Assembly: GCA_945787715.1 (NCBI GenBank)
Contig: CALZJE010000028.1
Span: 1 to 55,295, forward strand
DNA length: 55,295 nt
Reading direction: 5' to 3'
Origin: an uncultured Ectothiorhodospiraceae bacterium
Lineage (GTDB): Bacteria; Pseudomonadota; Gammaproteobacteria; S012-40
In this document: positions 4,123 through 46,812 of the stretch, one piece after another
Layout: every line of letters starts with the position of its first letter
How positions within the stretch are numbered: the first letter of the stretch is position 1
Notes under the pieces: model-generated
Database searches by the model: none
What the model was told of the DNA's origin: nothing
What the model saw: only the letters and a program-made list of their open reading frames with translations
Translations under genes and position numbers: made by a program

Positions 4123-4127
4123 GGAGT

Positions 4128-4709: not shown

Positions 4710-4722
4710 CCAGCAGCACGCA

Positions 4723-6731: not shown

Positions 6732-6784
6732 AAGCTATCTAATGTTAAAAATTCATTATTAAGAGATTAATAGTTTATTCAATA

Positions 6785-10599: not shown

Positions 10600-13500
10600 A
10601 TGAGAATGAATAAACTAGTTAATATTGCATTTTTTTTATTAATGGTATTGAGTTTCAATGCAGTTCTTCATGCTGACGAAACCTGTCAAAAAACAGTGAA
10701 TATGGGAGATTCTCTCGTTGATGCTTGGAACGGGAGTTGTGAATCAATCAATCGCAAGGATTATTACGACCCCTATAATCCCAAAGCAATTCCCGCGAAG
10801 TTTTATACGTTTACGCTTGACCGCCAAGCAGATGTTAAAATCACACTCAATCTTAGTTATAACGTTATTATATATTTGCTTGATGGTGCTACTAAAAATG
10901 GAACCATACTTAAACAAGTGAATGGCAAGACGCTTGAAAGCTATTTACCTGCAGGAACATATACGCTTGAAGTTACCTATCCTTTTTTCTCTTCTTTTAC
11001 ATTAAGTCTGACGTATAACGATGTCGGAAATACTGAATGTGTTCAGAGTCTAGTTGCGGGAACAACTATATCTGACGGCTGGGTTCCAAGCTGTGAATCA
11101 AATAATAGAAATATTGCTGATCCTTATAGTCCCTATCCTGATCTAGGATTTCGCGCAAAATATTTTACGTTTACTCTCGCAGAAGATTCAGATGTTAATA
11201 TTAAAGTGACATCAGAGGAAAACGCGTATCTCTATTTATTGAGCGGTCATGGTGAATTTGCTACACCACTTTTGGAATTTGATAAAAACGATGTTTTAAC
11301 GCCATTACCTGCGGGTGATTATACCGTTGAATTAACAACGAATGATCGTTATTCCCCCGGCAATTTCACGATTCTTTATTCCGTACTGAGCAATGACGCT
11401 TTATGTTCACAAGAACTTGTATTTGATGAAACCATAGAAGGCAATTGGTCTAATAGCTGTTTAATTCAAACCTGGGATAACTCTAATAGTGATCCTTATG
11501 CCGGGGTGAATCCTGAGCGCGCCATGTACTACACATTTTCGCTACAAGAGACAACAGATTTTCGTTTTAATGCAAACAGCACTAATCCAAAACTCGTATT
11601 GAATTTGTATCACGGTAATGATTACAGCAATCTGGTTAAAACAAATTTGAAAGGTGGCTACTGGTATGGATCAACGGATGCGATTATAGAAGCGACCTTG
11701 GCCCCGGACACTTACATATTGGAAGTAACAAGTTATAACCAACTTGCTGTTGGGAACTATTCATTTCAAGCTAAAATTCTTGGTGCTAGTGTCTGTAGTC
11801 AATCGATATCAGTAGGTGAGTATTACACAGGTCTGTTATCAAGCAATTGTATTTCGCAGTATCGTGAAGGTGTCAATAACGATCCTTATGCGCCACAACC
11901 TGGGGACTATTATGCGAGACGTTTTGAGTTCGAGTTATCAGAACCCCAAGTGATTAAGATTGATGCAAGCCTAGCTTCCAGTTCTGTATTTTTGTATTTA
12001 AGCCAAAAAAATACCTCGGGTAATACTTCTTTACTTGAAGAAACAGAATTCAATTATTGGAGTTATGAAAAAAGTCAAAGTATGTCTCGAGTGTTGGATA
12101 GTGGAAGTTATGTCGTTGAATTAACGTCTGCACAACCTTTTCAAAGTAGTTCGTACTCCCTATCTGTTCAACCAGTACGCAGTTCTGCTTGTGAAATATT
12201 TTTAAAGACGGATGAATTATTAACGAGTTATGTCTCAAGTTATAGTTGCCCTTCAAGTTTTAAAGAGAGTTACCAAAACCCAGACCCTTATGGTTCACCG
12301 CCACAGTTTGTTTTTAATTCGAAAGCAATCACCTTTAAAGTCGAAGAAGCAGGTGATATTACTTTTGATATTTCTGCCACTGGATTTATTCCTCATCTAT
12401 TTTTAGTGTCAGGTATTAATCGTGATGAGCAACTGATAATTGAAGAGCGAATGGGTTCTCGCTCTGGAAAGATCACGAACCTCCTTGAGGCAGGTTTTTA
12501 TACCTTAGAAATAACCAGTGCTGAAACTTCCACTTATGGTTCATTTTCAATAAAGATATTTGACCCTAATTTACAACCTCCAGAAAACGAACCAAAGCCA
12601 AATATTCCTCCAACAGAATCGTTATCGTGTGAATATGAATTGGCGAAGGTGAGTGAACAAACTATAACTGGTGAATGGTCGACAGATTGCATTTTTGATC
12701 ATTCAGTGTTCTATAAATTTGAATTAATGCAAATAGAAAAAATCGAGGTCTCTCTTAAAACTGAAGTAGATGCAAGTATAGCCGTACAAAAATTTGAAAG
12801 TGATAGATGGGAGGCAGTTACGGGTTCTGCGCGAATCGATGGAGGGGTTATTGAGCTATCTCACTTGTTCGATGTTGGTCTGTATCGTATAAAGCTCGAT
12901 CGTGCATCTTCAAATTCATCGGCTGATAGTTTTGAATTAAAAATACGCGGTAATTTGGGGCCGGATTCAGATAATGATGGCGTAGGTGATGATATAGATT
13001 TATTTCCACAAGATGGGACACAAGTTGGTGATGCGGATAAAGATGGCATAGATGATATTTTTGATAATGACTTTGATAACGATGGCGTTTTGAATTCCAA
13101 TGATGAATTCCCTCATAATCCATTAGAGTCTGAAGATGATGATTACGATGGTATCGGTAACAACAGTGATGATACTCCAATGCCTGAAGAAGGCGTTGTA
13201 CAATTGAATCAATCGGAATACACAGTAAGTGAAAGTGATGGCGCAATAACTGTTTTATTGAATCGATCTGATTATGTCATTGGTGAAACGCAAGATGACA
13301 ATTCTTCTGTGCCGAATTATTTGTTTATTAGAACCAATGATAAATCTGCAAAAACAAATCATAATTTTAAGGTAATTAGTGAAGTTGTAACTTTTGAAGC
13401 TGGCGAAACGTCAAAAGAGATAACCATTGAAATTCTAGACAACAATCTGTTCGAAGGAAATAAATCATTTGAAATTGAGCTGCTTTACCCACGAAGTATG

Positions 13501-15444: not shown

Positions 15445-18400
15445 TGATCATGAAGCGTCTTATTATCTTTTTTACACTTTTCCTTATTGTTTCTAGTATA
15501 GAGGCTAAGCCTTATTTTTGGGAGTTGGAAGGTGGGAGCAATCCTGTTGATCTAGTGGAGCGCCAAGATTATCGTCTTGGAAATTTAATACTTGCAGACC
15601 TTGATGGTGATAACGATATGGATCTTATTATCCCTGGTCGTCGAGATTACCCTAATAGTCCCACGCAATACTACCGTTTTTTTAAAAACACTGGCACCGT
15701 AACTAATGCGATATTTTCAGAACAAGTAGGTAATAATAATCCACTGGATCAAATTGAACGCCAGGATTATCGACTGGGAAACCTGATGCGTTTTTTTAAA
15801 AATACTGGCACCGTAACTAATGCGATATTTTCAGAACAAGTAGGTAATAATAGTCCACTGGATCAAATTGAACGCCAGGATTATCGACTGGGAAACCTGA
15901 TGCTTGCAGACCTGGATGGTGATAACGATATGGATCTTGTTGTCCCTGGACGACGCGACTATCCTAATTCACCTACTCAGTATTTTCGCATCTTTCAAGA
16001 TAATAGAAATAATCCCTCACATTTCATCAACACCTACCCCAAAGGCTCAAACGCAACTTTAGATGGCTTCACAATAAACATCCAACTCAACAAACCAGGA
16101 AAAGCCTATTATATAGTTGTAGATAATGAAAGCTCAGTTCCTTCAGTAGCAGAAGTAAAAGCAGGCACAGCAGCCGGAAGCTTAGCAGCTTTAGCGAGTG
16201 GCACCGTCAACGTTAATGAAGAACAAAAAACTTATGTTGCCATTATTAGCGGATTAATCGAGTCAACAGATTATGATATTTATGTTGTCGCCGAAGATAA
16301 TGAAGATCCAATACATATCCAACCAACAGTAACAAAGCTTGATTACTTCACAGCATCAGAGCCTACGAATATCTTACTTTTACCCGCTGAGATAGTAGAA
16401 AACACAATAACAGGAACAACAATCGGGTTGTTCACTTCTGAGGATCGAGGAAGCAATACCCATACTTACACACTGGTGGCAGGTGAGAGCGCTACTGATA
16501 ATGCTGCATTTGCGATTAGCGGCAATAGCTTGCAATCTGCTCATGTGTTCGATTATGAAACTATGTCTTTATACAATATTCGGGTACGAACAACTGATCA
16601 AACAGGATTGTTTTTTGAGAAGCCATTCGAAATTTCTGTGACAGACATCGATGAAATCTCTCCAGTATTTGAAAGTGGATTTCCAAAAATATCTAACATT
16701 ACTCAAGAAACTGCGCAAATTCGTGTGAAGATGAACGAGTTAGGTAAGATGTTCTATGTTGTTCTACCCGCTGATGTAACTGCACCTTCAGTACAACAAA
16801 TTATAAATCATCAAGATGGGAATGGGAGTAGCGCCCAAGTTTCTGGAGTGATGGAAATCGAACGTGCTGCACCGACAATCACATCTACTACGTTGGCGTT
16901 GTCACATTCTACTCATTACATTGCTTATTTAGTCGCACAAGACAATCAGGCTATTCCAAACTTACAAACAGTTGTTACCGCTATTGAATTTAGCATGCCA
17001 TTTACCCCAACAGCTATCAACTTGTCATCCGCTAGTATTCTTGAGCTTAATTACGCAGGTGAGACGATTGGTGCGTTGAGCGCTACTGATGAAGATTCCA
17101 ATGAGCATGTTTTTGAGTTAGTGACCGGTTCAGGTGATAACGATAATGCAAATTTTTCTATTGTCGGCAATACACTGAAATTTGAATCTGTTTCGGATTA
17201 TGAAGCTCAGAAACAATACTCAGTGCGCATACGTAGCACTGATGACAAAGGATTATATGCAGAACAAGTGCTGACAATTGATGTGACCGATGTGGATGAT
17301 ATGCCGCCGGTATTTGAAAACAATTATCCAGTTGTAGAAAACATCACATCGAGTTCGTTAGATCTATCGGTTAAGATTAATGAAAGTGGTAAAATCTATA
17401 TAGCGATTTTAGCTGCCGATGCTGTCGAACCAAGTTTGGAAGAAATGGTTTCAGGTATTACGCAATCAACTGCGTGGTTAGGTTATCAGGTTGTGGAAGT
17501 TACCGATACAACTATAGTGTACACAGTTTCGTTTACTGAACTTACACACTCCTCAATGTATAAACTTGTACTATTCGCTGAAGATGATTCCATTAATAAC
17601 AATCAACAAATTACTTTAACAACCTATCTTACAAAAACATTTGGCCCACCTAAATTTATCGAGGAATATCCGAAAGTGAGTGTGGGGGACGATAATGTAT
17701 TTAAGTTGGAAGTTAAAGTCGATCGCGTAGGAACCGTGTTTTACGCAGTTGTTGAAGAAGGGGAGAGCGCTCCGACTATTGACGATATTATTAGTACCAA
17801 AGAATTAAAACGTGATTTCATTGACAGCGGTCAGGTAAATGTAACAGATATTAAAGAATTGTTGGTTGCGGAAATTAAAAACCTTGATGTCAATAAATCT
17901 TATGATTTATATCTTTTTGCAGAAGATGATGGTGTTACTCCGTTAGCTCAACACGAAGTGTCTAAAATAGATTTTAGTCTTTCACCATCAGTGCCTGTGT
18001 TAGTTTCTCCCCTAAACGGTTCTGAAACTATCGCACTAGATACAGTATTTCAATGGAAGCCATCTACAGATCCAAATGGCGATGAAATAAGTTATGAGCT
18101 TTATGTTTGTATTACCGAGTCCTTCGATGATTGTGACCCACAGAATATGACGCCAAGTTTAATCGCGCTCAATATTAGTTTAATCGGATTTTTACCAGCG
18201 GCTTTAGCGTTCATATTATCACCTCGCCGAGAAAATAGATTGAAAATCAAACACGCGGTATTTATTCTGATTGCTTTTTCGCTGTTGACGTCTTGTGATC
18301 AAAATAAAAAATCTGATGAAAAAGATGCTGATAAAATCATAGTCGATACCAATATATCCCAATCAACTAAACAATCGATGTTACAAACAGAGACCATATA

Positions 18401-18476
18401 CTATTGGAAAGTAGTTGCAAAAGATGGGAAAGGTGGAGTAACTGAAAGCGAAGTATGGAGTTTTACAACGCAATAA
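15444..18476 (+). CDS. Surface protein with FG-GAP/VCBS and cadherin-like domains, internal membrane/lipobox insert
   Basis: A signal peptide (to IEAKP, about residue 23) precedes FG-GAP/VCBS-type calcium loops (ADLDGDNDMDL, twice). Residues about 190-850 alternate cadherin-like domains (FDYETMSLYNIRVRTTDQ) with Fn3-like modules (YDIYVVAEDN). The last 150 residues are an Fn3-like domain ending YYWKVVAKDGKGGV...WSFTTQ. It is interrupted at about 902-975 by a hydrophobic helix ending FILSPRR, then KIKHAVFILIAFSLLTSC, which looks like a lipoprotein signal, and a DEKDADK spacer. A 114-bp tandem duplication lies at 15675-15902. It is translationally coupled to the preceding gene (TAATG). Adhesion or matrix binding is likely; localisation is unclear because of the internal membrane segments. 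Confidence 0.8.
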   Translation: MIMKRLIIFFTLFLIVSSIEAKPYFWELEGGSNPVDLVERQDYRLGNLILADLDGDNDMDLIIPGRRDYPNSPTQYYRFFKNTGTVTNAIFSEQVGNNNPLDQIERQDYRLGNLMRFFKNTGTVTNAIFSEQVGNNSPLDQIERQDYRLGNLMLADLDGDNDMDLVVPGRRDYPNSPTQYFRIFQDNRNNPSHFINTYPKGSNATLDGFTINIQLNKPGKAYYIVVDNESSVPSVAEVKAGTAAGSLAALASGTVNVNEEQKTYVAIISGLIESTDYDIYVVAEDNEDPIHIQPTVTKLDYFTASEPTNILLLPAEIVENTITGTTIGLFTSEDRGSNTHTYTLVAGESATDNAAFAISGNSLQSAHVFDYETMSLYNIRVRTTDQTGLFFEKPFEISVTDIDEISPVFESGFPKISNITQETAQIRVKMNELGKMFYVVLPADVTAPSVQQIINHQDGNGSSAQVSGVMEIERAAPTITSTTLALSHSTHYIAYLVAQDNQAIPNLQTVVTAIEFSMPFTPTAINLSSASILELNYAGETIGALSATDEDSNEHVFELVTGSGDNDNANFSIVGNTLKFESVSDYEAQKQYSVRIRSTDDKGLYAEQVLTIDVTDVDDMPPVFENNYPVVENITSSSLDLSVKINESGKIYIAILAADAVEPSLEEMVSGITQSTAWLGYQVVEVTDTTIVYTVSFTELTHSSMYKLVLFAEDDSINNNQQITLTTYLTKTFGPPKFIEEYPKVSVGDDNVFKLEVKVDRVGTVFYAVVEEGESAPTIDDIISTKELKRDFIDSGQVNVTDIKELLVAEIKNLDVNKSYDLYLFAEDDGVTPLAQHEVSKIDFSLSPSVPVLVSPLNGSETIALDTVFQWKPSTDPNGDEISYELYVCITESFDDCDPQNMTPSLIALNISLIGFLPAALAFILSPRRENRLKIKHAVFILIAFSLLTSCDQNKKSDEKDADKIIVDTNISQSTKQSMLQTETIYYWKVVAKDGKGGVTESEVWSFTTQ
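15675..15902 (+). repeat. 114-bp tandem duplication inside the surface-protein gene
   Basis: 15675-15788 and 15789-15902 differ at only two positions that I can see. Each copy encodes 38 residues running from RFFKNTGTV to DYRLGNLM. The length is a multiple of three, so the frame is kept. The first copy joins directly to the second where a calcium-loop half (LADLDGDNDMDL) would be expected, so a full repeat was shortened by recombination. Confidence 0.9.
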
Positions 18477-26514: not shown

Positions 26515-27420
26515 CTAGTATTTATTTAATATCGCACAGAAACTTACATCAGGGATTGATTCGATTGAATTGTAATAACGTACACAATCGTTAAACCAAT
26601 GTACAAACCTGTCGGCATGTTCGCTTGAATTAATGGGGTACTGGCGCATCTTCCATCGGTTTGCATCACCTCTGTTTCTGTATACACCTCCTGCGTTATA
26701 TGCACAGGCAACTTTAGGTGGGTCAAAATCGGTTTTTTTCCATTGGCTAGCGATATATGCAGTGCCAGCTCGAATGGCGTTATCAGCCGTTAGCAACCAG
26801 GCACGGTCTATTGTATTGTCTGCTAAAACTTCACGTGCGGTAGATATTAGTGTTTGTGTAATTCCTGGGGAGACTTTGTTCGGAGTTGCTTCATCTGAAA
26901 TATATCCCGGCTCTTCGCGTACTGCGCTAGGGTCACCACGAGTTTCTGTGCAAACGGTAGCAACAATTAACTCTGCTGGAACACCAAATTTTTCACTCCA
27001 ACGGCTAATGGAATCTCCATAATTTTGCCAAACACGGGCCACTGTATCAGGCTGACCACCTGTATCTTCGGGTGGATTTCCCTCAATGGATATTCCATTA
27101 TTTCCCAGTGACCAACTAACTCCCTCAAATACATTATGAGGTACCTTAAGCGAATCTATGGCTTGATTAATTTTTTCCTGGGCTGGATTACTTATTTCAG
27201 TGAAGGCTTCGGTCCATGTCATCGGGCCGACAATACCATCGATTGTCAAACCACGAGACTGCTGAAACATTTTGACTGCTTCACCGGTCTTCGCGCCAAA
27301 GATTCCATCTACCTGACCTGCTTGTACAAACGACAATTGATGAAGTCGTCGTTGCAATTCAAGAACATCTTCGCCGCGAAGAAATGGTAATTGATATTTT
27401 AATGCTCTAGTGTATGCCAT
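26515..27420 (-). CDS. Peptidoglycan-binding lytic transglycosylase-like protein, no signal peptide
   Basis: Residues 14-72 are a PG_binding_1 domain (VLELQRRLHQ, VDGIFGAKTGEAVKMFQ, IDGIVGPMTW). Residues about 125-285 are a transglycosylase-like lysozyme fold: ATVCTETRGDP gives the catalytic Glu159, SPGITQT the usual second motif and ACAYNAGG the substrate-binding motif. It should cleave the glycan strand of peptidoglycan. No signal peptide precedes the binding domain, unlike housekeeping transglycosylases, so it may be exported by another secretion system or released on lysis, as for phage endolysins or type VI effectors. It is 301 residues long. A lipoprotein gene lies upstream and a lipase gene downstream on the same strand. 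Confidence 0.85.
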   Translation of the reverse strand: MAYTRALKYQLPFLRGEDVLELQRRLHQLSFVQAGQVDGIFGAKTGEAVKMFQQSRGLTIDGIVGPMTWTEAFTEISNPAQEKINQAIDSLKVPHNVFEGVSWSLGNNGISIEGNPPEDTGGQPDTVARVWQNYGDSISRWSEKFGVPAELIVATVCTETRGDPSAVREEPGYISDEATPNKVSPGITQTLISTAREVLADNTIDRAWLLTADNAIRAGTAYIASQWKKTDFDPPKVACAYNAGGVYRNRGDANRWKMRQYPINSSEHADRFVHWFNDCVRYYNSIESIPDVSFCAILNKY

Positions 27421-27672: not shown

Positions 27673-28344
27673 CTATGGACAATTTTCAAGTCCGGATTTC
27701 GCCCCTTCTACATCTGCGATCAGACGTGAATAATTTGCGGCATATTTGCTACTTGCTGCCTTTACACTCACTGCTTTTAAATTTGATATGATATGGTTCA
27801 CGGCAGCACAAACTTGGGTGTCTCCGGGTGCTGAGAGTATAGGGCCGCGTAGTAAAGTGAATTTCGCACTATTATTGAAATAAAGTGCTGCCAAATTCCC
27901 CGGTAATGCTTTCTCAAAGTTTTCTGAAGTTTCGAGCAAACGTCGTGTAAAATTTTCTGCTTCGCTACCCTTGCTCAAGTCTTGTCTTTCACGTAATGAT
28001 TCACTCAAGTTTTCGTAAGTTTGATCTTGTTTAAGGTTTAAGTCGCCAAGTTTCCATTTACTTGTTAATTTTATACCCTTGTCTAAATGTACAATAGCGC
28101 AGTCAAAATGTTTGATAGGTTCTTTTCCCTGTTTTCCTAATCGATAACAAGCATCACCTTTAATCAAATGCAATTGGTTACAGGCTTTATCACTCGCCTT
28201 ACATTTAATATCGGTTTTTACGATCGTTTCATAGTGACCTTTCTCGTGCTCACTCTTCAGGTTTTTTAACTCTGATATTGATCCGCAAGCAATTAATGAA
28301 ACAAGAAAAGTAAACCACAGTGTAACCTGGAATAGTTTTTTCAT
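27673..28344 (-). CDS. Lipoprotein, 223 aa, unknown
   Basis: The N-terminus MKKLFQVTLWFTFLVSLIAC is a lipoprotein signal with Cys20 after SLIA; Gly21 at the +2 position suggests outer-membrane sorting by the Lol rule. The rest is helical, with three Cys between residues 48 and 81 (KCKASDKACNQ, FDCAIVH) and two near the end. Residues about 45-100 look like TPR-type helices. It overlaps the upstream membrane-protein gene by ATGA and is therefore translated with it. A periplasmic guard or immunity role for the neighbouring hydrolases is possible but unproven. No family was recognised. Confidence 0.75.
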   Translation of the reverse strand: MKKLFQVTLWFTFLVSLIACGSISELKNLKSEHEKGHYETIVKTDIKCKASDKACNQLHLIKGDACYRLGKQGKEPIKHFDCAIVHLDKGIKLTSKWKLGDLNLKQDQTYENLSESLRERQDLSKGSEAENFTRRLLETSENFEKALPGNLAALYFNNSAKFTLLRGPILSAPGDTQVCAAVNHIISNLKAVSVKAASSKYAANYSRLIADVEGAKSGLENCP

Positions 28345-29744
28345 TCTTCTAATCCCTCACTGGCTTTTTTAAACACTTCAACGACGGGCTCACCTTCATT
28401 TTGGAGATTCTCTGCCACGGTCACCAAGGCATCAAGATCCGCAAGTGCTTTGTTGTCAGTATGTATTCTGTCGATCATACCAATAAAGGCGTCATATCCA
28501 CCAATTGCAGAAAAAGCACTGTCGTCAATAAACTCCTTCAATTCTCGATCCGCCGCGTTGTGGCGAAATTCAATTAATCCCTGTTCAAATAATTCTCGGG
28601 AATCGAAATGATCTTTATATTTTGTGTAGATTGCATTGGTGTCTGATTCTTTAATACACAAATCAATCATCGATTGCATAAAGGGACGGTCGTTATCTTG
28701 CAACTCTTGCATAAATGCTTTTTTAAAGATTGGACTAGCAACCAATAAACTAAATCCTGTGTTGGCATCAATGGTTTTCAAAGGTAATTCCGCTGGAGAA
28801 AAGGGAGCGTGTAATATGCGTGCTTTCCACTTTTGATAGGCTAAACCTGCTAATCCTGCACCAACACCTACCACAGTGGTAATCAGTGCAACTTGTGGTA
28901 GCGATACACCTAAAGCAAGTTTGAAGGATGCGGCTGCTTTTTTAATAAGATCTTTAACTGGATTTTCGGTAACAAAGTCTTTAAATGTTTCTTGCGCCTT
29001 ATTTACCGCATCGCTTACCATACCCGACTTGTTTAATTTTTCGGCGACATCCACGCCTTGTTCTAATTTTCCAACTAATTTTTCGTACTTTTTCTGATGT
29101 TCTTCAGGCAAATATTTGAGTACTTTTTTTGTTAGCGATACTCCTTTTTTCGCTTTTTTTAACAGCTCATTAGCTTTGTCACCATCTTTTTCAGCGACTG
29201 CTGTGTCACGCTGCTGTTTCATTTCATTGACCTGTTTTAGCATGCCCGAGTCAGCAGGCCCACTCGAACGGCTTCCAAAATAAAAACCGATAACTGCGCC
29301 CAACAGTGAGCCTAATGCTTCAGGAAAGCTAGTTTCTACGACACCCAAGACCTGGAGTGAAATAAAATAGAGCGACAATATAACAACGGAAAAAGCAATC
29401 ATTGAGCGGATGGTGCCGGTTGGCAATCCAGCGGGACTTTGCGAGAACAAGGTCATTTGTTTTTCATCTTTACAACCCGAAAAATATCGGCGCTGCAAAG
29501 CCCACATATACCCAAGCATACCTGCAATAATTATCACCAAAATTGCCAGTGTCCCATAGGTTACGTTTTTATCCTTGGCTTCCTGTTGATCTTTGGTTTT
29601 ATTTTCTAGTTGTTCAGGAGTTTGAGCACTGTCTACTGACACTTCAGCGTATGCTGTACCGTCAATAGATAAAAGTGGCAATGAGGAATAAAAGAGGACG
29701 CCCAGTAAAAGCATCATCAAAAAGCTAACACCCTGTCTTCGCAT
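28341..29744 (-). CDS. Membrane protein with YFGSR-type helix pair, 467 aa, unknown
   Basis: A signal-peptide-like segment ends TAYAEV near residue 34. Membrane helices follow at about 61-83, 109-132 and 139-157, the last ending GAVIGFYFGSRSS. I recall this helix pair from short uncharacterised proteins near phage-like or envelope loci. Residues 165-265 are Lys/Glu-rich helices, another hydrophobic stretch (about 280-300) contains VVGVGAGLAGLAY, and the C-terminal 160 residues are soluble and helical. The start has GGGAGAGAG upstream. It is the first gene of the minus-strand group and probably carries its promoter upstream of 29744. The role is unknown; a membrane platform for the other three products is conceivable. 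Confidence 0.7.
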   Translation of the reverse strand: MRRQGVSFLMMLLLGVLFYSSLPLLSIDGTAYAEVSVDSAQTPEQLENKTKDQQEAKDKNVTYGTLAILVIIIAGMLGYMWALQRRYFSGCKDEKQMTLFSQSPAGLPTGTIRSMIAFSVVILSLYFISLQVLGVVETSFPEALGSLLGAVIGFYFGSRSSGPADSGMLKQVNEMKQQRDTAVAEKDGDKANELLKKAKKGVSLTKKVLKYLPEEHQKKYEKLVGKLEQGVDVAEKLNKSGMVSDAVNKAQETFKDFVTENPVKDLIKKAAASFKLALGVSLPQVALITTVVGVGAGLAGLAYQKWKARILHAPFSPAELPLKTIDANTGFSLLVASPIFKKAFMQELQDNDRPFMQSMIDLCIKESDTNAIYTKYKDHFDSRELFEQGLIEFRHNAADRELKEFIDDSAFSAIGGYDAFIGMIDRIHTDNKALADLDALVTVAENLQNEGEPVVEVFKKASEGLEE

Positions 29745-34184: not shown

Positions 34185-34719
34185 TATAAAAAGGGGGAGG
34201 TTGCGTCCTCTTTTTTTGTTTTTTAGATTGTGACATAAGTACAGTAAAGCAAGTCTGATATCACCATTCACCATATGGACGGCTCCCGCATCAGAAGTAA
34301 ACTTCGAAAAGCTAACAATATTGTTCACTTATACCCAATATAGACGTGTTTTATAACCCATCGCGTCTTTCCCCTGAAAGTCCGGCATATCTCCTACATT
34401 TTTAGTCATTATGTAATTTAAAGTCCATCTGGGAAGTGTCGCTAACCTATTGAATATGCGGAAGGTAATAGTATTAAACTGTCGTTTTATAGTGACAGTG
34501 GAGAGCCTGCATGAGGTGATCAAAGGAGCCTAGGAAAGGGCAAGAAAATACCGCTCTACCTTTTAGTACTAAACCTAGAAGATGGTAACTACATGAGGTT
34601 AGTAAAAAAATAAAACACCATATTGAGCAGTGGTGCCAATTTTACTGTGACCAAATCAACGTTTAATGTTTTTGCTTTGGTTTACAATTTGATTTCACTT
34701 ATTGGAGATTTTTAACAAC
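34185..34719. other. 535-bp region before the stator-like pair
   Basis: No gene was accepted. A 64-codon minus-strand reading (34329-34523) has some protein-like character but no recognised family and may be a relic. The last 100 bp are AT-rich and likely contain the promoter of the stator-like operon. Confidence 0.4.
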
Positions 34720-37434
34720 ATGCTTTCCGAAAAATCAGCAGAATCCAAATCGCAAACAGCAGAGGCATTAGTGCCTTTGATTGATTTGTTTGCCGTTTTG
34801 GCGTTGGTTTTCATGCTTTACTCCAGTCAGGAAATCATTGAGGTAAAACAGGAAACGGAAGAGCAGATTCAGGAGTTTGCTGCCCAGGTAGAAATTGAAA
34901 AAAAGGAGGAGGTGAAACGAAGAGCTTTAGCAAAAGAGTCTAATTTAACGCTGGAGACGATTAAGAAACGTCAAGAGGAACAGGCCAAGAAATTGATGAA
35001 AAAGTTTGCACAAATGTTGGCGATTGAACAAACCAAATTTACTGCTGAGTATGAAGATCTTGTCGTTGATATCGAAGATAAGAATGCCAAGCAGCGCGAA
35101 GCGCTAGAAGAAAAACGTAAACAACAGTTGGCGCAGGCAGAGAAGGAGTACGAAGAATCGCTTGTTGCTAAAAAACAAGAGTTGGAAGAACAAAAACACC
35201 GAGCATTGGCCGAAGCAAAACAACGATACACTGAAAATTTAGTGACGCAGCAAACACGATTGGAAGAGCAGAAGCGCCAAGAGTTGGAGTTGGCACGTGA
35301 GGCACTTAAAAAGGCACTTGCTTCTCAGGAATCGGAATTGACAGAAAGTAAGCGGCGAGCGCTAACAAAAGCAGAGCGAGAATATGCCAAGGCAATCACT
35401 GATCAGAAGACAGCTTTGGAACACAAAAAACTTCAAGAATTAGCAAAAGCACAGCAAGAATTTGACGATGCACTGAAGTCAAAAACAAAATCCATTGCGA
35501 ATACAAAACAAAGGGCTTTGGAAAAGGCAAATGTTGAATATACCAAAGCACTGTTAGCACAAAAAACAGCTTTAGAAGGACAAAGGCAGCAAGAGCTAAA
35601 GCAGGCTGAACAGGAGTATCAAAACGCGCTCTCTTCACAAGAGTTTGAACTTGCGAAGGCGAAACGGAAGGCGTTAATCAAGGCACAGAAAGAACACGCT
35701 GAGTCTTTAACGGCACAAAGAACATCATATGAGACACAAAAACGCAGAGAACTGGCGAAAGCTGAAGCTGAATTCAAGGTGGCAATAAAGAGTAACGAGT
35801 CACGTTTAATAAGCGCGAAACAACAAGCATTGGATAAAGCTCAACAACAATATACTAACGCTTTGGCGGTGCATAAAACGGCGTTGGAATCCGAGAAGCA
35901 GCAGGCGCTGAAGCAAGCATATAGTGAATATCAAGATGCGGTTAAATCAAAAGAATCAAAACTCACTGCGGAGAAGAAATTAGCCTTATCAAAAGCACAA
36001 CAGGAGCATGCGAGTGCTCTAATAGATCAAAAGACGGCTTTAGAAGCGCAGAAACGGTCGGAACTTGAGCGAGTTGAGAAAGAATATCAGAATGCGATTA
36101 CGTCTAAAGAAACATCGTTGACCGCAGAAAAACGACAAGCTGTGTCTAAAGCAAAGGATGATTATTCAAAGGCACTAATTGCACAAAAGTCCGCATTAGA
36201 AGCACAGAAACAGCAAGCATTAGCTCAGGCCCAGCAAGAGTACAGCGAAGCATTAAATTCAAAGCAGTCTCAATTAATGGCGGCCAAACAGGAGTCATTA
36301 GCCAAAGCTAAGCAAGAACATAGTGATGCATTGGCCGCACAAAAATCTGCCATGGAATCGCAGAAACGTGAAGAATTGTCCCGTGCACAACAGGCATATG
36401 ATAAAGCACTAGCGTCGAAAAAATCGGAACTCACTGCGGCAACAAAAGATGCATTGGCGAATGCGCAAAATACTTATAATAAAGCGCTCTCAGCACAAAA
36501 AGTAGCTTTGGAAGGTCAGAAGAAGCAATCCCTTGAACAAGCCAAGCATGAATACGAACAGGCGCTAGCATCTCGCGAATCAAAACTCTCTGCATCAAAG
36601 AAAGCAGCGTTGGATAAGGCTCAGCACGAATATGCAAAAGCGCTTGAAGAACGAGTAGCCAGTGTGGAAGCCAATAAGCAAAAAGAGCTTAGTAAAGCGC
36701 AGAAATCCTTTACCGAAGTATTGGCCGCCAATACAGAACGGTTGGCTGGAGAGAAAGATAGAGCGTTGTCAAATGCTGAGAATGACTTTGCCAGAAAATT
36801 GGGTGAAGAAAAAGCGAACGTCGGCAAATTAAAGGGTGAGCTAGATCAATATCTGAAAGCGGTGGAGGCAAAGGAAAAAATTGTCACTCAGCTTAAAGAC
36901 AACTTCAAAAACTTTAATTCTTCATCGGTTGAAGTTGATAGTAAAACTGGGAAAGTCAAATTGCACTTTCAGCAATCCTACTTTAAACGTGGCCGCGGCG
37001 AGTTAACAGATGAAATGAAGGCAATTCTAAGAACTATGATTCCCAAGTACGCAGAAAGTATATATGGCAATAAAGAGGCTGCAAAACAAGTGGGTTCGCT
37101 AAAGATTACTGGTTTAACATCTCCTGTTTACAAAGGACGATATATTGATATAAACGACGATTCAAAAGAAACAGAAAAGGCTCGTAAATTCAACATTAAA
37201 TTAAGTAATGAGCGTGCCTTAGCAATGTACAACTTTGTTTTCAATGATCCAGCGATGAAGGACTTTCCTTTTCGAGACAAATTAAAGAAAGACATGGGTA
37301 TATCTGCCCAGGGTTTTTTGAATTCACAACCAGTGCCCAAAGAACTAGTGGGTCAGAAGGCACGCTGTGTTAAATATGATTGTAGTCAGGAGCAAGCGGC
37401 TGTACTGCAATTTCAAATGAATATGGGTCAATAA
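34720..37434 (+). CDS. MotB/ExbD-like protein with ~600-residue helical repeat rod and OmpA-like C-terminus
   Basis: The N-terminus has one membrane helix (residues 18-36) starting LVPLIDLFAVLALVF; Asp22 is where MotB and ExbD carry their proton-binding Asp. From about residue 120 to 720 the protein is a Lys/Glu/Ala/Gln-rich helix of about 23 repeats of 26 residues, alternating two types: ALExQKxxELxxAxxEYxxAL and KxSxLxxxKxxALxKAxxEY. Residues 730-904 form a mixed domain with ELTDEMKAILRTM and LSNERALAMYNFVF, similar to OmpA/MotB peptidoglycan-binding domains, with two Cys near the end. By analogy the membrane helix is N-in, so the rod would be periplasmic. ATG 34720 is chosen because a TTG 18 bp upstream overlaps the GGAG ribosome-binding motif. 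The MotA/TolQ-like partner follows after 48 bp. Confidence 0.8.
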   Translation: MLSEKSAESKSQTAEALVPLIDLFAVLALVFMLYSSQEIIEVKQETEEQIQEFAAQVEIEKKEEVKRRALAKESNLTLETIKKRQEEQAKKLMKKFAQMLAIEQTKFTAEYEDLVVDIEDKNAKQREALEEKRKQQLAQAEKEYEESLVAKKQELEEQKHRALAEAKQRYTENLVTQQTRLEEQKRQELELAREALKKALASQESELTESKRRALTKAEREYAKAITDQKTALEHKKLQELAKAQQEFDDALKSKTKSIANTKQRALEKANVEYTKALLAQKTALEGQRQQELKQAEQEYQNALSSQEFELAKAKRKALIKAQKEHAESLTAQRTSYETQKRRELAKAEAEFKVAIKSNESRLISAKQQALDKAQQQYTNALAVHKTALESEKQQALKQAYSEYQDAVKSKESKLTAEKKLALSKAQQEHASALIDQKTALEAQKRSELERVEKEYQNAITSKETSLTAEKRQAVSKAKDDYSKALIAQKSALEAQKQQALAQAQQEYSEALNSKQSQLMAAKQESLAKAKQEHSDALAAQKSAMESQKREELSRAQQAYDKALASKKSELTAATKDALANAQNTYNKALSAQKVALEGQKKQSLEQAKHEYEQALASRESKLSASKKAALDKAQHEYAKALEERVASVEANKQKELSKAQKSFTEVLAANTERLAGEKDRALSNAENDFARKLGEEKANVGKLKGELDQYLKAVEAKEKIVTQLKDNFKNFNSSSVEVDSKTGKVKLHFQQSYFKRGRGELTDEMKAILRTMIPKYAESIYGNKEAAKQVGSLKITGLTSPVYKGRYIDINDDSKETEKARKFNIKLSNERALAMYNFVFNDPAMKDFPFRDKLKKDMGISAQGFLNSQPVPKELVGQKARCVKYDCSQEQAAVLQFQMNMGQ

Positions 37435-37482
37435 ATTTTCATGTTATTTAATCACGTTTAGAGATAAACGATTGAGGTTGCT

Positions 37483-38517
37483 ATGTTTAAGTTTCTTTTT
37501 TTAGTTAGTATTTCACTTGCAGTAGGCGCTGCATATTATAGTGAAATTGAGATAAGCAATGCGCAAATTGGGACTATATTTGTCGTTGGCATTCTGAGCG
37601 TCTTTTTGATATTCATATTATTTAAGTTTGGATTGCATTACAAAATACAAGCCCTAAATAAATTTTGTTTAGCTTTCTACTATTCTGTTTTTGAATATAA
37701 GAAAAAATCACAAAAAAGCCTGAGAAGTGTCAATTATGCCAATAGTGTAAGAGAGCAAGCGGAAGTAGCAATTTCCGCAAATTTTGACCCGAAAGTGGCT
37801 AAAGTGGCTAAAGTGGCTATGAAAGTGCCCGTATCAATGTACACAAAGGATAGTGCCTACATGCCTGTATTGCGAGCGCGTATTCAGGAAGCTGAACGAT
37901 TAAAAATCGAGGCACGAGAACTTGAAGGTCAAGCATCCAAAATTATTGAAGAGACCGAAGAAATATTGGTTGATAAAAAAATAAAAGAAAAATCAAAGAA
38001 AGGATCTTTACTGGATTCCATGTTTGGTATCCAGGAGGGGGTACAGAATATGATTGATTTGACTGTGAGTGAAATTACAGACCAGGATTATAGCGCAGCG
38101 CCGGATTATGAAATAATTACAAATATCGCCCTAGATAATAATCCGTATTTTTCGACTGTCTTAAAGTCTTTTAATATGGAAAATGTGTCGGCTATTATAA
38201 ACAGAGCACCATTTATGATAATTTTGATGGGGATTATAGGTACATTTGCTGGTTTCTTTCTTGCGCTTAGTGAAGGCGGCGATATAAAAGCAGGGGCGGC
38301 AGTAGCAATTGTCAGCTCTTTGGTTGCACTTCCAGTTTCGCTAGCGGTTGACTATATTAACACCCTGTATCCCGATGGAGAGCGTTATCAACATGCATTT
38401 AACCGTTATAAATTAAGTTTGGAGATTCTCTTTAATCATGAGAAAGACCGCTATCCAAATAGAATGGGGCGGCGTAAAGATGATATATCAGAATTTGATG
38501 ATGACATTGAAGATTGA
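37483..38517 (+). CDS. MotA/TolQ/ExbB-like proton-channel protein, 344 aa
   Basis: Four hydrophobic helices are seen: about 1-20, 28-50, 241-262 (APFMIILMGIIGTFAGFFLA) and 271-293 (AAVAIVSSLVALPVSLAVDY). The last two, with GIIGTFAGFF and a small-residue helix containing Ser and Pro, fit the MotA/TolQ/ExbB superfamily channel core. The 190-residue cytoplasmic part between helices 2 and 3 contains a charged helix (RIQEAERLKIEARELEGQA). The C-terminus is acidic. GAGG precedes the ATG. It follows the MotB-like gene and should form with it a 5:2 stator-like, ion-driven complex; TolQ or ExbB partners TolR/TonB are absent here. A 9-bp repeat AAAGTGGCT occurs near 37794. Confidence 0.8.
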   Translation: MFKFLFLVSISLAVGAAYYSEIEISNAQIGTIFVVGILSVFLIFILFKFGLHYKIQALNKFCLAFYYSVFEYKKKSQKSLRSVNYANSVREQAEVAISANFDPKVAKVAKVAMKVPVSMYTKDSAYMPVLRARIQEAERLKIEARELEGQASKIIEETEEILVDKKIKEKSKKGSLLDSMFGIQEGVQNMIDLTVSEITDQDYSAAPDYEIITNIALDNNPYFSTVLKSFNMENVSAIINRAPFMIILMGIIGTFAGFFLALSEGGDIKAGAAVAIVSSLVALPVSLAVDYINTLYPDGERYQHAFNRYKLSLEILFNHEKDRYPNRMGRRKDDISEFDDDIED

Positions 38518-41447: not shown

Positions 41448-41969
41448 ATGGCAGAAGAAACGGAAGTTGCGCTTAAAGAAGGTGGAAAAGGATCATCCAT
41501 GAAAATCGTTTTGGTGATGGTCGTTGGCGGGATTCTGTTAGTCGCTGTTAGCATTGGCGGTGTTTTTTTTGGAATGAAGCATTTCGGTATGTTAGATGGC
41601 GGTGGTGGTGGTGGAGGGCATCAACAGCCAGTAGATCCACACGCTCATGCACCTGCGATTTATTTCCCGCTAGAACCAGCATTTGTTGTTAACTTTAAAG
41701 ACCGAGGTAGAACACGGTTTCTGCAGGTTACAATGGAAGTTATGGCGCGTGACCCCCAGATCATTGAAGATATTCAAATGCACATGCCTCTCATTAGGAA
41801 TAATATTCTTTTGTTACTGAGTAATCAGGACGCAGAGAAATTACACAGCTCCGAAGGTAAAGAAGAGATCCGAAAAACAGTATTGGAAGAGATGATCGCA
41901 ATTTTGGCAGAAGAAACAGGTAGGGTTAAGGTAGAGGGTTTGTATTTCACCAGTTTTGTAACGCAGTAA
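41448..41969 (+). CDS. fliL: Flagellar basal body-associated protein FliL
   Basis: One membrane helix (residues 18-42) is followed by a Gly/His-rich linker and a periplasmic domain with FPLEPAFVVNF and RTRFLQVTMEVMARD, then the conserved helix AEKLHSSEGKEEIRKTVLEE. FliL surrounds the MotAB stator units and supports torque or stator retention. The 173-residue length is normal. It is the first gene of the operon, 46 bp after a sigma-54-type promoter, with GAGG before the ATG, and is followed 10 bp later by fliM. Confidence 0.93.
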   Translation: MAEETEVALKEGGKGSSMKIVLVMVVGGILLVAVSIGGVFFGMKHFGMLDGGGGGGGHQQPVDPHAHAPAIYFPLEPAFVVNFKDRGRTRFLQVTMEVMARDPQIIEDIQMHMPLIRNNILLLLSNQDAEKLHSSEGKEEIRKTVLEEMIAILAEETGRVKVEGLYFTSFVTQ

Positions 41970-41979
41970 GGCTATATAT

Positions 41980-42975
41980 ATGAGCGGACCAGATATACTT
42001 TCGCAGGATGAAATCGATGCTTTGTTACATGGTGTATCCAGCGGAGACGTAGATACCTCGGGTGATGAGTTTGATGAAGATTTAAGTAATTATGACTTTG
42101 CTAGTCAGGATAGGATTGTACGTGGGCGTATGCCTACGTTGGAAATGATTAATGAACGTTTTGCCCGTTTTTTCCGCGTGAGTTTATTCAACAAAATACG
42201 CCGCTCTGCAGAGATTTCGGTTGAAGGCGTACAGATGATGAAATTTGTTGAATATGTCCACGGTTTATATCTCCCCACCAGTTTGAATATGATTCGCATG
42301 GGTCCACTACGTGGCACTGGGCTTTTCGTTTTTGATCCAAAGCTAGTATACATAATTGTAGATAATTATTTTGGCGGCTCAGGTCGTTTCCATACAAAGA
42401 TAGAAGGGCGTGAATTTACACCAACAGAACTACGTATCGTTGAGAATGTGCTTGAGCGAGTGTTTGAAGATTTAAAAGAAGCATGGGCGCCTGTACTCGA
42501 AGTCGACTTTGAGTTTTTGAATTCTGAAGTGAATCCACAATTTGCAAATATTGTAAGCCCAAGTGAAGTAGTGGTGGTAAGCACATTCAATATTGAGCTA
42601 GATGGTGGAGGAGGGGAGATGCATGTTGTATTTCCTTATCTTATGCTGGAGCCGATCAGGGAGCTACTAGATGCGGGTGTATTGAGTGATAGTGTGGAGA
42701 TGGATGATCGTTGGTCGCAAGCCTTACGAGAAGAAATTCTTGATGCCAATCTGGAAATTAACAGTATTTTAGCGGCAGCGAAATTAACATTACGTGACGT
42801 GAAGAATTTGGATATAGGCGATGTTATTCCCATAGAATTGCCAAAAAATGTGAGGTTAAACGCAGCGGGCATACCAATATTTCAGTGTGAATATGGTGCA
42901 CACAATGGTAAAAAATCACTAAAAGTCGAAAAAAGAGTTCCCCTTCATGTATCACAACACGCTAGTGAACAGTAA
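41980..42975 (+). CDS. fliM: Flagellar switch protein FliM
   Basis: The N-terminus MSGPDILSQDEIDALLHGV is the CheY-binding peptide. The middle (residues about 45-230) is the CheC-like fold (RGRMPTLEMINERFARFF, GLFVFDPKLVYIIVDNYFGG), and the C-terminal part is the SpoA domain (RDVKNLDIGDVIPIELP) that packs on FliN. It forms the C-ring at the cytoplasmic base of the motor and reverses rotation on CheY-P binding. Length 331 is typical. It lies 14 bp before fliN. Confidence 0.96.
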   Translation: MSGPDILSQDEIDALLHGVSSGDVDTSGDEFDEDLSNYDFASQDRIVRGRMPTLEMINERFARFFRVSLFNKIRRSAEISVEGVQMMKFVEYVHGLYLPTSLNMIRMGPLRGTGLFVFDPKLVYIIVDNYFGGSGRFHTKIEGREFTPTELRIVENVLERVFEDLKEAWAPVLEVDFEFLNSEVNPQFANIVSPSEVVVVSTFNIELDGGGGEMHVVFPYLMLEPIRELLDAGVLSDSVEMDDRWSQALREEILDANLEINSILAAAKLTLRDVKNLDIGDVIPIELPKNVRLNAAGIPIFQCEYGAHNGKKSLKVEKRVPLHVSQHASEQ

Positions 42976-42989
42976 AGAGATAATTTGAT

Positions 42990-43427
42990 ATGGCAGATAG
43001 CGAAATTCCAAATGAAGAAGATCCATGGGCAGACGCCCTAGCAGAGCAAGCTGATGTAGAAGGCAAAAGCGAAGCAGATCTCAGTGCCGCTGAAGCGATT
43101 CAGGCCGCAGGACTAAGTGAACTTGTAAATGCCTCTGATATTAGTGAAGAGTTAGGCGGTGAAGAATCGGTTAATTTGGATATGATCCTGGATATACCTG
43201 TTGTTATTTCGATGGAAATAGGTAGAACTCAGATTAGTATTCGAAACTTACTTAAGTTGAATCAAGGTTCGGTTGTCGAGCTAGATAGACTTGCAGGTGA
43301 ACCTTTAGATGTGTTGGTTAATGGAACATTAATCGCACATGGTGAAGTCGTAGTGGTTAACGAAAAATTCGGTATTCGTTTGACGGATGTCATCACTGCG
43401 ATGGAGCGGGTTAAAAAATTAACATGA
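42990..43427 (+). CDS. fliN: Flagellar switch protein FliN
   Basis: The C-terminal SpoA domain (LDMILDIPVVISMEIGRTQI ... VNEKFGIRLTDVI) is canonical; the first 60 residues are an acidic extension (NEEDPWADALAEQ) common in gammaproteobacteria. FliN forms the lower C-ring with FliM and binds the export chaperone FliH. Length 145. Its stop overlaps the fliO start by ATGA. Confidence 0.95.
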   Translation: MADSEIPNEEDPWADALAEQADVEGKSEADLSAAEAIQAAGLSELVNASDISEELGGEESVNLDMILDIPVVISMEIGRTQISIRNLLKLNQGSVVELDRLAGEPLDVLVNGTLIAHGEVVVVNEKFGIRLTDVITAMERVKKLT

Positions 43428-43864
43428 TTAAAATGCTGTTCTATTCCCTTCTGCTAGTGTCAATATTTAGCGCAGATCCCATCTTCGCTGAGGGCGTAAA
43501 AACAAGCTTGGAAGTTGGGGCGCCATCTCAAGATCTCACCGCAAGTATGTTTAAAGTTATTGGTGGTTTGCTTGTTGTTATTTTAGCAATATTTGCATCA
43601 GCTTGGTTTTATCGACGTTTTGCTAATATGCAATCAATTGGTAGTGAATCGTTAAAAATTCTTGGTGGGCTTTCAATTACCCAGAAAGATAGGGTGATAC
43701 TTTTGCAAGTTGGTGAAGAGCAGTTACTGGTTGGCGTGTCTCCCGGTAGAATTCAAACGCTTCATGTACTCAATAAACCGCTCGATATCGAAGAAAGTGG
43801 AGAACAAGACAAACAAAAGTTTTCCTCACAACTTAACCGCGCTATAAAGAACTGGAAATCATGA
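43424..43864 (+). CDS. fliO: Flagellar biosynthesis protein FliO
   Basis: A signal-like first segment (to IFAEG) and one membrane helix (about residues 40-62, ending WFYRRF) precede a cytoplasmic domain with [20 protein letters not shown] and [16 protein letters not shown], the FliO pattern. FliO is an assembly factor for the FliP ring of the export gate. It overlaps fliN and fliP by 4 bp each. Confidence 0.92.
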
Positions 43865-44616
43865 TTGTAAAAAAGGCAGTACCCTACCTGTTTTTGTTGG
43901 TAGTCTGTCTTACACCGATGATGGCAAGTGCAGCAGATTTAGGAGTGCCTGCATTAACGGTGCAAACACAACCTGATGGTTCTGAAGCTTATACGTTAAG
44001 CATCCAAATTGTCATATTGATGACATTGATTACATTGTTGCCTGCTGGGTTAATGATGCTAACAGCTTTTACTCGAATTGTTATAGTGCTCTCGATTCTT
44101 AGACAAGCGATCGGGCTGATGCAGGCGCCTTCTAGCCAAGTTTTAATCGGATTATCTTTGTTCTTAACATTTTTTATCATGGCACCTATTTTCAACAAAA
44201 TTTATGACGAAGCGTTACTTCCTTATATGGAAGAGAAGATAGAGATGCAAGAGGCGTTTAACATTGCACAAGCACCCGTCAGAGAGTTTATGATTGCTCA
44301 AACGAGAGAAGTTGACTTGAAGATGTTTGCTGAAATATCGGGTAATACAGAGATTCAGTCACCAGAAACTATACCATTTTCAATTTTAGTACCTTCGTTT
44401 ATAACGAGCGAGCTGAAAACAGCATTTCAGATTGGTTTTCTTATTTATATTCCTTTTCTGGTAATTGATTTGGTAGTGGCGAGTGTATTGATGGCGATGG
44501 GTATGATGATGTTATCTCCTATGATGATTTCTCTGCCGTTTAAAATTATGTTGTTCGTTCTCGTTGATGGCTGGTCGCTCATCATGGGAACATTAGCATC
44601 GAGTTTCTACGTATGA
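43861..44616 (+). CDS. fliP: Flagellar export gate protein FliP
   Basis: A signal peptide (ending ASAADLG) precedes four membrane segments. Family signatures are [39 protein letters not shown] and the C-terminal [20 protein letters not shown]. FliP forms the five-subunit core of the export gate with FliR and FliQ. Length 251 is normal. It overlaps fliO and fliQ by ATGA. Confidence 0.96.
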
Positions 44617-44882
44617 CACCTGGTGTCGTCGTCGACGTTTTCCAAAATACGCTGTGGCTTATTGTGCTCTTGGTCTCTATAATTTTATTACCAGCGCTCG
44701 CGGTTGGTTTATTGGTTGCTGTTTTCCAAGCGGCTACATCTATTAATGAAATGACCTTAAGTTTTATTCCAAAATTGTTGGTGACGATTTTTACATTAAT
44801 GTTCGCAGGCCCCTATATGTTAAACATATTGTTGGAGTATATGCATAAAACTTTTGCAGATGTCCCATTCCTAATCGGATAA
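44613..44882 (+). CDS. fliQ: Flagellar export gate protein FliQ
   Basis: The 89-residue two-helix protein has the family pattern [20 protein letters not shown], then [10 protein letters not shown]. Four FliQ subunits wrap the FliP/FliR core of the gate. It is overlapped by fliP and separated from fliR by 14 bp. Confidence 0.95.
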
Positions 44883-44896
44883 CTAAGGCGATCTAG

Positions 44897-45673
44897 ATGC
44901 TTTTTACCGGTGAAGAACTAAGCACTATGGTTGCCGCCTATTTCTGGCCGTTTGTGAGAATCGCTGCGATGATAAGTGCAATGCCAGTTTTTAGTTCCAA
45001 CTTTATTCCAGTGCGAGTTCGTTTAATCCTTGCGATTGCTTTAACTGTTGTAATCGCACCAGTTATTCCATCTGTTCCAGTAATTGATGCACTTAGTCTT
45101 AACGGCGTTCTTCTCATTCTTCAACAATTGCTCATTGGTGTTTCCATGGGCTTTATATTTCATATAGTGTTCGCGGCATTCACCATCGGTGGTCAAATTA
45201 TTGCCATGCAGATGGGCTTAGGATTTTCAACGATGGTAGATCCTGTTAACGGGTCACATACGCCTGTACTCAGTATGTTTTATATTTTGTTAGTGACATT
45301 ATTATTTTTTATTTTGAATGGACATTTGGTAATGATAGCGGTAATTGCCCAAAGTTTTAATGCTATGCCTATCGGTGTTTCTGGGATGGCTGCCACCACC
45401 TTTTGGGATATTGTTATTTGGGGAAAAATCATGTTTGCCGGTGCTATTCTTATTTCATTGCCCGCTGTTACTGCATTATTGTTCGTAAATATGTCTTTAG
45501 GGCTTATTGGTAGGGCTGCGCCACAATTAAACATTTTTGCAGTTGGCTTCTCTATAACAATAACGGCTGGATTTTTTGTACTGATGATGTCTATGCCTGT
45601 TGTAGTGACACAGTTTGAAAACATTACGCTTGACGCATTTAAAATGGTTAAGTCTATTCCGGGAATTAGATAA
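44897..45673 (+). CDS. fliR: Flagellar export gate protein FliR
   Basis: Six membrane helices with FliR signatures FWPFVRIAAMISAMPVFSSN, GEQI-like GGQIIAMQMGLGFSTMVDP and a C-terminal NIFAVGFSITITAGF. A single FliR closes the FliP5-R gate spiral. Length 258. It is followed two bases later by flhB; in some bacteria these are fused. Confidence 0.95.
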   Translation: MLFTGEELSTMVAAYFWPFVRIAAMISAMPVFSSNFIPVRVRLILAIALTVVIAPVIPSVPVIDALSLNGVLLILQQLLIGVSMGFIFHIVFAAFTIGGQIIAMQMGLGFSTMVDPVNGSHTPVLSMFYILLVTLLFFILNGHLVMIAVIAQSFNAMPIGVSGMAATTFWDIVIWGKIMFAGAILISLPAVTALLFVNMSLGLIGRAAPQLNIFAVGFSITITAGFFVLMMSMPVVVTQFENITLDAFKMVKSIPGIR

Positions 45674-45675
45674 GT

Positions 45676-46812
45676 ATGGCCGAGAATGAACAAGGTCAAG
45701 AAAAGACTGAAGACGCGACGGAGAAAAAGCAGAAAGACACGCGTGAAAAAGGGCAGGTTCCGCGGTCTCGGGAGTTTAATACTTTTTTTATGATGTTGGC
45801 TTCAGGAGTTGGGCTGATATATCTCGGTAGCGACATTATAGACGGGCTTCTTGGAGTATTAAAAGATAATTTTATCGTTGGTCGAAATGATATCTTTGAC
45901 AAAAATTTTATGCTCAATTCCTTCTGGGAGAGTGTAATTTCATCCTTAAAATCACTTATTCCATTATTTATCTTGTTAGTTTTTATTGCTATCGCATCAT
46001 CTCTCACCATTGGCGGATGGAATTTTTCTTGGAAAGCAATCACCCCGAAAGGAAGTAAGCTCAATCCCTTATCCGGATTAAAGCGGATATTTGGTTCCCG
46101 TGGATTAATGGAGTTGGGTAAAGCATTGGCAAAATTTTTTGTCGTTGCTATTGTTGCGTCACTATTGCTTTATCACAATGCAGAGAAGCTGATGATTGTT
46201 GGTCGTCAGAGTGTTGAAGTTGCATTGGCAAATGTTGGTGGCGAGCTACTATGGTATTTTTTACTCTTGAGTTTAAGTTTGTTGGTAGTCGCCGCAGTCG
46301 ACGCTCCTTTTCAGATTTGGGATAACAAGCGAAAGATGAAGATGAGTAAAGATGAGGTTAAACAAGAGTTTAAAGGCCAGGAGGGTAGCCCAGAAACTCG
46401 TCAAAGGATTCGTCAAGCGCAACGAGACATAGCCATGAAACGTATGATGGCTGACATTCCAGATGCTGATGTTGTCATAACTAATCCGACTCATTACGCG
46501 GTAGCTATTAAATACGATCCTGATGGTGGTGCTGCACCTCGTGTTGTTGCCAAAGGTTCAGATCTAATTGCAGCTCGCATCCGGTTAATTGCAGCAGAAA
46601 ACAATGTTCCTCTTTTGTCTTCTCCAGCGCTCGCACGGGCAATTTTTTATAGCACCGAGTTAGATCAAGAGATCCCTGCTGGATTATATATGGCAGTGGC
46701 TCAAGTTCTTGCATTTATCTTTCGATTGAAAGACAAACCTGGTACAGATTTTTCAAGTCCCCTTACGTTAGACGATGTTCCTATTCCAGACGATTTGAAA
46801 CGTGATGAGTAG
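45676..46812 (+). CDS. flhB: Flagellar export switch protein FlhB
   Basis: The N-terminus AENEQGQEKTEDATEKKQKD and four membrane helices precede a cytoplasmic domain with the autocleavage motif NPTH (Asn270-Pro271), in VVITNPTHYAVAIKY. Cleavage there switches export from rod/hook to filament substrates. Length 378 is normal. A 241-bp gap then precedes flhA, in which I see no gene. Confidence 0.96.
   Translation: MAENEQGQEKTEDATEKKQKDTREKGQVPRSREFNTFFMMLASGVGLIYLGSDIIDGLLGVLKDNFIVGRNDIFDKNFMLNSFWESVISSLKSLIPLFILLVFIAIASSLTIGGWNFSWKAITPKGSKLNPLSGLKRIFGSRGLMELGKALAKFFVVAIVASLLLYHNAEKLMIVGRQSVEVALANVGGELLWYFLLLSLSLLVVAAVDAPFQIWDNKRKMKMSKDEVKQEFKGQEGSPETRQRIRQAQRDIAMKRMMADIPDADVVITNPTHYAVAIKYDPDGGAAPRVVAKGSDLIAARIRLIAAENNVPLLSSPALARAIFYSTELDQEIPAGLYMAVAQVLAFIFRLKDKPGTDFSSPLTLDDVPIPDDLKRDE

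Follow-up and report, generated by a model that had tools for sequence, protein, structure and literature searches.

The 55,295-nucleotide stretch of contig CALZJE010000028.1 analyzed here (the window), from an uncultured Ectothiorhodospiraceae bacterium, carries two adjacent genes that we call B and A. By profile comparison of both subunits, and for B also by its modeled fold, the pair is a divergent ZorAB-like unit. We consider that it probably works as a free-standing, ZorAB-related 5:2 ion motor of the inner membrane, in which a dimeric B would bear a 45-100 nm periplasmic coiled-coil tether with a wall-binding-type end. A preliminary description of this DNA had proposed a stator-like unit of two genes, whose B-like subunit carries the rod. 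This is borne out, and the two genes are strictly kept together. The features are the following, all on the + strand.

34720..37434, +: B subunit gene, MotB/ZorB-like with a giant rod, 904 residues (ATG start, GGAG ribosome-binding site; kept in related loci)
34768..34830, +: membrane-spanning helix of B at residues 17-37, bearing the invariant Asp22 (sequence; motif in homologues)
34855..35106, +: conserved helical region of B next to the membrane, residues 46-129, outside the clear 26-residue repeat (its N-terminal part shares 44-45% identity with distant members)
35107..36822, +: rod core of 22 tandem 26-residue helical repeats, residues 130-701 (repeat analysis)
36865..37431, +: B C-terminal ZorB/OmpA-like domain, residues 716-904 (PADLOC ZorB1 E 9e-21; model pLDDT 81; 8vvi_B Z 18.5; ZorB profile probability 98.6)
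37366..37383, +: paired cysteines C883/C888 of B (both invariant throughout 21 sequences, among them the distant L037 pair)
37483..38517, +: A subunit gene, ZorA/MotA/TolQ-like channel protein, 344 residues (ATG start)
38206..38367, +: A pore hairpin TM3-TM4 (third and fourth transmembrane helices), residues 242-295, GIIGTFAGFF from G250, conserved T254/S279 (invariant alignment columns; the helix limits come from a model of low confidence)
34188..34217, +: terminator-like stem-loop with T run, separating B from the RluA-type gene upstream (pattern match only)

The B subunit joins a membrane helix, a giant rod and a ZorB-like domain

We modeled the C-terminal domain of B with AlphaFold2 (pLDDT 81). 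Its best fold matches were the ZorB chains 8vvi (Z 18.5) and 8vvn (15.5); MotS, PomB and MotB ranked below them, and part of this lead in Z-score comes from the helix preceding the domain. The OmpA/MotB-like C-terminus of the preliminary description thus holds, with ZorB and MotB/OmpA-type domains as the closest folds. Profile comparison points the same way: the domain matched the 8vvi ZorB with an E of 2.3e-5 and the ZorB profile with a probability of 98.6 (E 5e-16). The C883/C888 pair would form a disulfide stabilizing the domain.

At the other end, Asp22 lies within the only N-terminal hydrophobic helix of B (EALVPLIDLFAVLALVFMLYS), as the Asp-bearing helix of the earlier description implied. 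The motif A[LI][VI]P[LM][IV]D around it is present in all homologues with an intact N-terminus.

Between the two ends runs a rod of ~670 helical residues, free of proline, whose 22 units of 26 residues stand in perfect register. Self-identity at lags of 26, 52 and 104 residues was 0.28, 0.37 and 0.40, respectively, against a mean of 0.11 across all lags. The repeat had therefore been recognized correctly and lies far above chance, while its length, given earlier as about 600 residues, is nearer 670. The hydrophobic period of the rod is 3.715, that is 26/7, residues per turn; a right-handed coiled coil should show this value, and the rod would accordingly be one. Rod length varies from 299 to 675 residues across homologues, and one homologue (L007) has exactly 130 (5 x 26) residues fewer. 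Fully extended at 0.15 nm per residue, the rod of the window would measure about 100 nm, and those of the homologues about 45-100 nm.

The A subunit is a divergent pore protein nearest to ZorA

The core GIIGTFAGFF, noted earlier in a MotA/TolQ-like channel protein, is present at residues 250-259 of A. The GT core is fully or almost fully conserved, and T254 and S279 are invariant across the aligned family, which agrees with the polar ring of Ser/Thr residues reported for ZorAB (PMC11890865). Searching the PDB with the A-family profile, we found ZorA (8vvn_C) as the best match, with an E of 1.4e-5. Comparison by hhalign gave probabilities of 81 for ZorA, 23 for MotA and 10 for TolQ/ExbB. Pfam, NCBIfam and PADLOC held no usable match to A. 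The ZorA profile matches A and PF01618 misses it; hence, as judged from sequence, A is a divergent member of the 5:2 ion-driven motor superfamily with a MotA/TolQ/ExbB-type pore hairpin. The protein ends about 50 residues beyond TM4. A match to cytochrome oxidase (8iuf) in the PDB profile search was dismissed as one of membrane composition.

The pair is kept together and is under purifying selection

The gap between the genes is 48 nt, on the same strand, with B first. A terminator-like stem-loop separates B from the upstream RluA-type gene, so B and A probably form their own two-gene operon. No RNA families were found near this operon.

Scanning the GTDB collection, we found the pair on 27 contigs from 26 genomes. 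It is present in 4 of the 13 genomes of the order and in 3 of 369 sampled genomes of the class, one of these being a distant relative. The carriers are scattered, marine and sediment organisms, almost all uncultured, and are labeled Gammaproteobacteria or Proteobacteria. At every locus with both genes on the contig, B lies directly upstream of A. The distances of A and of the B C-terminal domain correlate closely (r = 0.94, Mantel p = 0.0005). Within the genus, A had a dN/dS of 0.08 and the C-terminal domain of B one of 0.03; the rod showed a pN of 0.18 versus a saturated pS of 0.82, with identical rod length. The pair is under purifying selection. The preliminary description had set the search for homologous pairs and their neighbors as a test, and this turned out in its favor: the pair is not always beside known tol, exb, mot or zor genes, and both Asp22 and the C-terminal domain are conserved.

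Neighboring genes and the flagellar and defense readings

The claim that no flagellar gene is adjacent was wrong. A fliL gene starts at 41448, 2.9 kb downstream of the pair, and is followed by fliM, fliN and further fli/export genes (fliM and the later flagellar genes were named from sequence, not by profile search). The whole forms a fliL-fliM-fliN-fliO-fliP-fliQ-fliR-flhB-type operon at 41448-46812 of the window. This operon, together with the MotB-like fold of the B domain, would suit an accessory or alternative flagellar stator. We regard that as highly improbable, since the neighborhood is not conserved among homologues, elsewhere in the source genome there are three A-then-B stator pairs of the ordinary flagellar type (L106, L107 and L108), and the profiles are closer to ZorA/ZorB than to MotA/MotB.

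The same genome carries, at 1525-3308 of another locus (L109; G000:C15), a MotA/TolQ-like protein of 335 residues followed by a B-like protein with one transmembrane helix. The outer part of the latter looks like a von Willebrand A domain (LMIDASGSMHG) and is not OmpA-like.

No recurring neighbor family emerged when a third gene tightly linked to the pair was sought across the loci, and no conserved mot, tol, exb or zor neighbors were found across the homologous loci. Two candidate partners were rejected. A 96-residue CxxCxxCC gene downstream of the pair is found only within the genus, and the LysM-M23 (nlpD-like) genes upstream of the pair at three loci (L017, L019 and L024) look like a shared insertion place.

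A role in defense deserves weighing here. The pair could be a minimal Zorya-like unit that senses phage damage to the wall through the B tether and, having no zorC/D/E genes, answers by ion leakage or by calling in an effector from elsewhere. In favor of this, ZorAB is the nearest relative of both subunits, the distribution is patchy, and in one metagenome-assembled genome (L023) a Wadjet jetABC operon at 1864-7386 lies 0.8 kb from the homologous pair. However, this is the only clear defense neighbor among about 26 loci, with no general enrichment. No linked effector gene of the zorC/D, zorE or zorF/G type was among the best 25 families of the neighbor scan, in which no ZorC/D/E-type match was found at an E below about 3e-16. 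The pair lacks the ZorA tail that protection by Zorya I and II needs (PMC11890865), and it was unmatched in the plasmid, phage and viral contig collections that we searched. On balance we think a defense role unlikely.

Elsewhere in the window, positions 10600-18476 encode two adjoining large proteins of surface type: the first, of 1614 residues, has six Calx-beta domains, and the other, of 1010 residues, has cadherin/FG-GAP domains. Positions 27673-29744 encode an uncharacterized membrane protein (467 residues) and a lipoprotein-like protein (223 residues) without clear family matches, adjoining a peptidoglycan-binding/lysozyme-like gene (26515-27420) and a lipase-like gene. An 820-residue Sel1-type repeat protein with a secretion signal-like start is encoded at 843-3305.

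The pair differs from each known motor

Zorya ZorA/ZorB (types I and II; PDB 8vvn, 8vvi and 8qyd) is the closest relative. Like the pair, it has an A pore hairpin with GxxGTFxG and a conserved Ser/Thr, and a B with a transmembrane Asp and a ZorB-type OmpA-like domain (PxY...GxTS...LSxxR). The rod, in contrast, is on B and probably periplasmic in the pair, whereas in Zorya it is on A and cytoplasmic. The A of the pair probably has four transmembrane helices and lacks the long C-terminal cytoplasmic tail, its B has a Cys pair without counterpart in most sampled ZorB, and no zorC/D/E genes stand beside it. The order is B-A in the pair and A-B in the sampled ZorAB loci (L039-L047). Since a survey of stators finds B downstream of A in most genomes (PMC12505986), this order is unusual. 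From the absence of the ZorA tail, the effector genes and the A-B order, we conclude on sequence grounds that the pair is not a Zorya system. The earlier statement that it fits no named system holds in so far as these three traits are missing, and fails in so far as both subunits are nearest to ZorA/ZorB.

MotAB/PomAB share with the pair a four-transmembrane-type A with a large cytoplasmic loop and a B in which a linker joins a single Asp helix to an OmpA-like domain. Unlike them, the pair has a linker of 299-675 residues (about 50 in E. coli MotB), a reversed gene order and no tie to flagellar genes. Its profile similarity to them is also weak: 23 for MotA and a probability of 1 for MotB, the latter against only two MotB sequences.

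TolA of the Tol-Pal system likewise has a long Ala/Lys/Glu/Gln-rich helical periplasmic segment after one transmembrane helix, and the rods of the shorter homologues of B look TolA-like. But TolA is a separate third protein, whereas the rod of the pair is inside the B (axle) subunit. In TolQR/ExbBD, B is small with an ExbD/TolR-type periplasmic domain, unlike the 904-residue B with an OmpA/ZorB-like domain here. GldLM also has a long periplasmic part on the B-like subunit, passing force outward; GldM has beta-sandwich domains and outer-membrane ring partners, whereas the pair has a repeat helix and an OmpA-like end. In SiiAB of Salmonella SPI4, a proton channel with a non-flagellar use, a MotB-like gene precedes a MotA-like gene. 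The gene order of the pair is the same, a likeness by description, but the pair has no conserved type I secretion operon alongside. No long rod is known on SiiA.

A second B-A pair of the same plan occurs in another genome (G370; L038, 7407-10768). There, a B of ~820 residues with a transmembrane Asp, an SMC-like coil of about 560 residues, an OmpA-like end and a Cys pair is followed by an A of 299 residues. It is only distantly related to the pair of the window, with different repeats and a shorter A that looks three-transmembrane. By hhalign, its A scored 98% against the window A-family profile and 95% against ZorA. Because this locus has the same plan, the rod-on-B design may reach beyond the window family, as an unrecognized branch beside Zorya. 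Searching the open-access literature, we found no description of such a rod-bearing B-A pair; a ZorAB-related pair bearing such a rod thus appears to be undescribed.

Discussion

The assembly that we infer, from its 5:2 stoichiometry and topology to the disulfide, the rod extension, the ion flow and the tether role, would work as follows. By analogy with the family, five A subunits would form the pore ring, each with a four-helix membrane part, a cytoplasmic loop of ~190 residues and a short tail. Two B subunits would thread this ring with one helix each, Asp22 facing a polar ring that would include T254/S279. Outside the membrane, the two B chains would continue as a right-handed coiled-coil periplasmic rod of 45-100 nm, ending in the disulfide-stabilized ZorB/OmpA-like domain, which would grip peptidoglycan or some other ligand associated with the wall. 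The likeliest role for the rod is that of a long tether along the wall or woven through it, so that from a distance the wall would anchor the motor and, through strain, gate it. Once the tether is engaged, ion flow would turn A relative to B, and the force would then pass to the envelope or to some partner that the A loop has in the cytoplasm. For Zorya, it is proposed that the B domain grips peptidoglycan and so opens the channel, with ion flow driving rotation (PMC11890865). The function of the pair in the cell, the weakest step of our reading, is most likely in envelope mechanics or in a Zorya-like response to wall damage.

Positive residues follow TM2 of A, and acidic residues follow the B helix. 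This charge bias, together with the OmpA-like end and the invariant Cys pair, favors a periplasmic rod and C-terminal domain. Were B inverted, its rod would be cytoplasmic and would mimic the ZorA tail. A 100 nm rod would easily fit the cytoplasm, and a long cytoplasmic rod is known on ZorA (PMC11890865). Nevertheless, Asp22 is placed toward the N-terminal end of its helix, like the Asp of ZorB/MotB, with acidic residues beyond the helix, and a wall-binding-type domain with invariant cysteines at the C-end points outward. An inverted B would therefore be very surprising.

Several results weigh against a periplasmic tether motor related to ZorAB. The PADLOC ZorB1 model is promiscuous (it matched in 276 of 369 genomes), so its hit was not used alone to place the B domain. 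PF01618, which matches 14 places in the source genome, fails to detect A. The AlphaFold2 model of A, built from 22 homologues, reached a pLDDT of only 44 and was left unused for fold claims; owing to its low quality, the A pentamer is assumed from the family. The wall-contact residues are kept only in part. By sequence comparison, the LSxxR arginine of ZorB is retained in the B family, the GHTS of ZorB reads G(L/M)TS, and the distal arginines of ZorB lack a clear equivalent. With the ZorB histidine replaced by Leu/Met, peptidoglycan binding by the B domain is uncertain. Finally, a rod of 45-100 nm is too long to stand upright in the periplasm, and it would therefore run along the wall, traverse it or double back. 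That an extended rod far exceeds the periplasm, as noted in the preliminary description, holds for the whole range of 299-675 residues, with the reservation that a hairpin like the 22 nm one predicted for TolA domain II (PMC8928145) would halve its length.

We see an even chance that the pair represents an undescribed motor family in which the axle subunit is extended as a rigid 45-100 nm periplasmic coiled-coil rod, acting as a long-range tether, sweep arm or strain gauge in the Gram-negative wall. Among the known 5:2 motors, Mot and Zor work through a B linker that is short, Tol through a rod protein that is separate, and Gld through a shaft of beta-domains. If our reading is true, a helical rod of 300-675 residues on B would mean motors working across several periplasm widths, and the pair would be a natural system for asking how such motors sense the wall or pull on it. 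A ZorAB relative without defense genes, standing beside Zorya, would also bear on the origin of Zorya.

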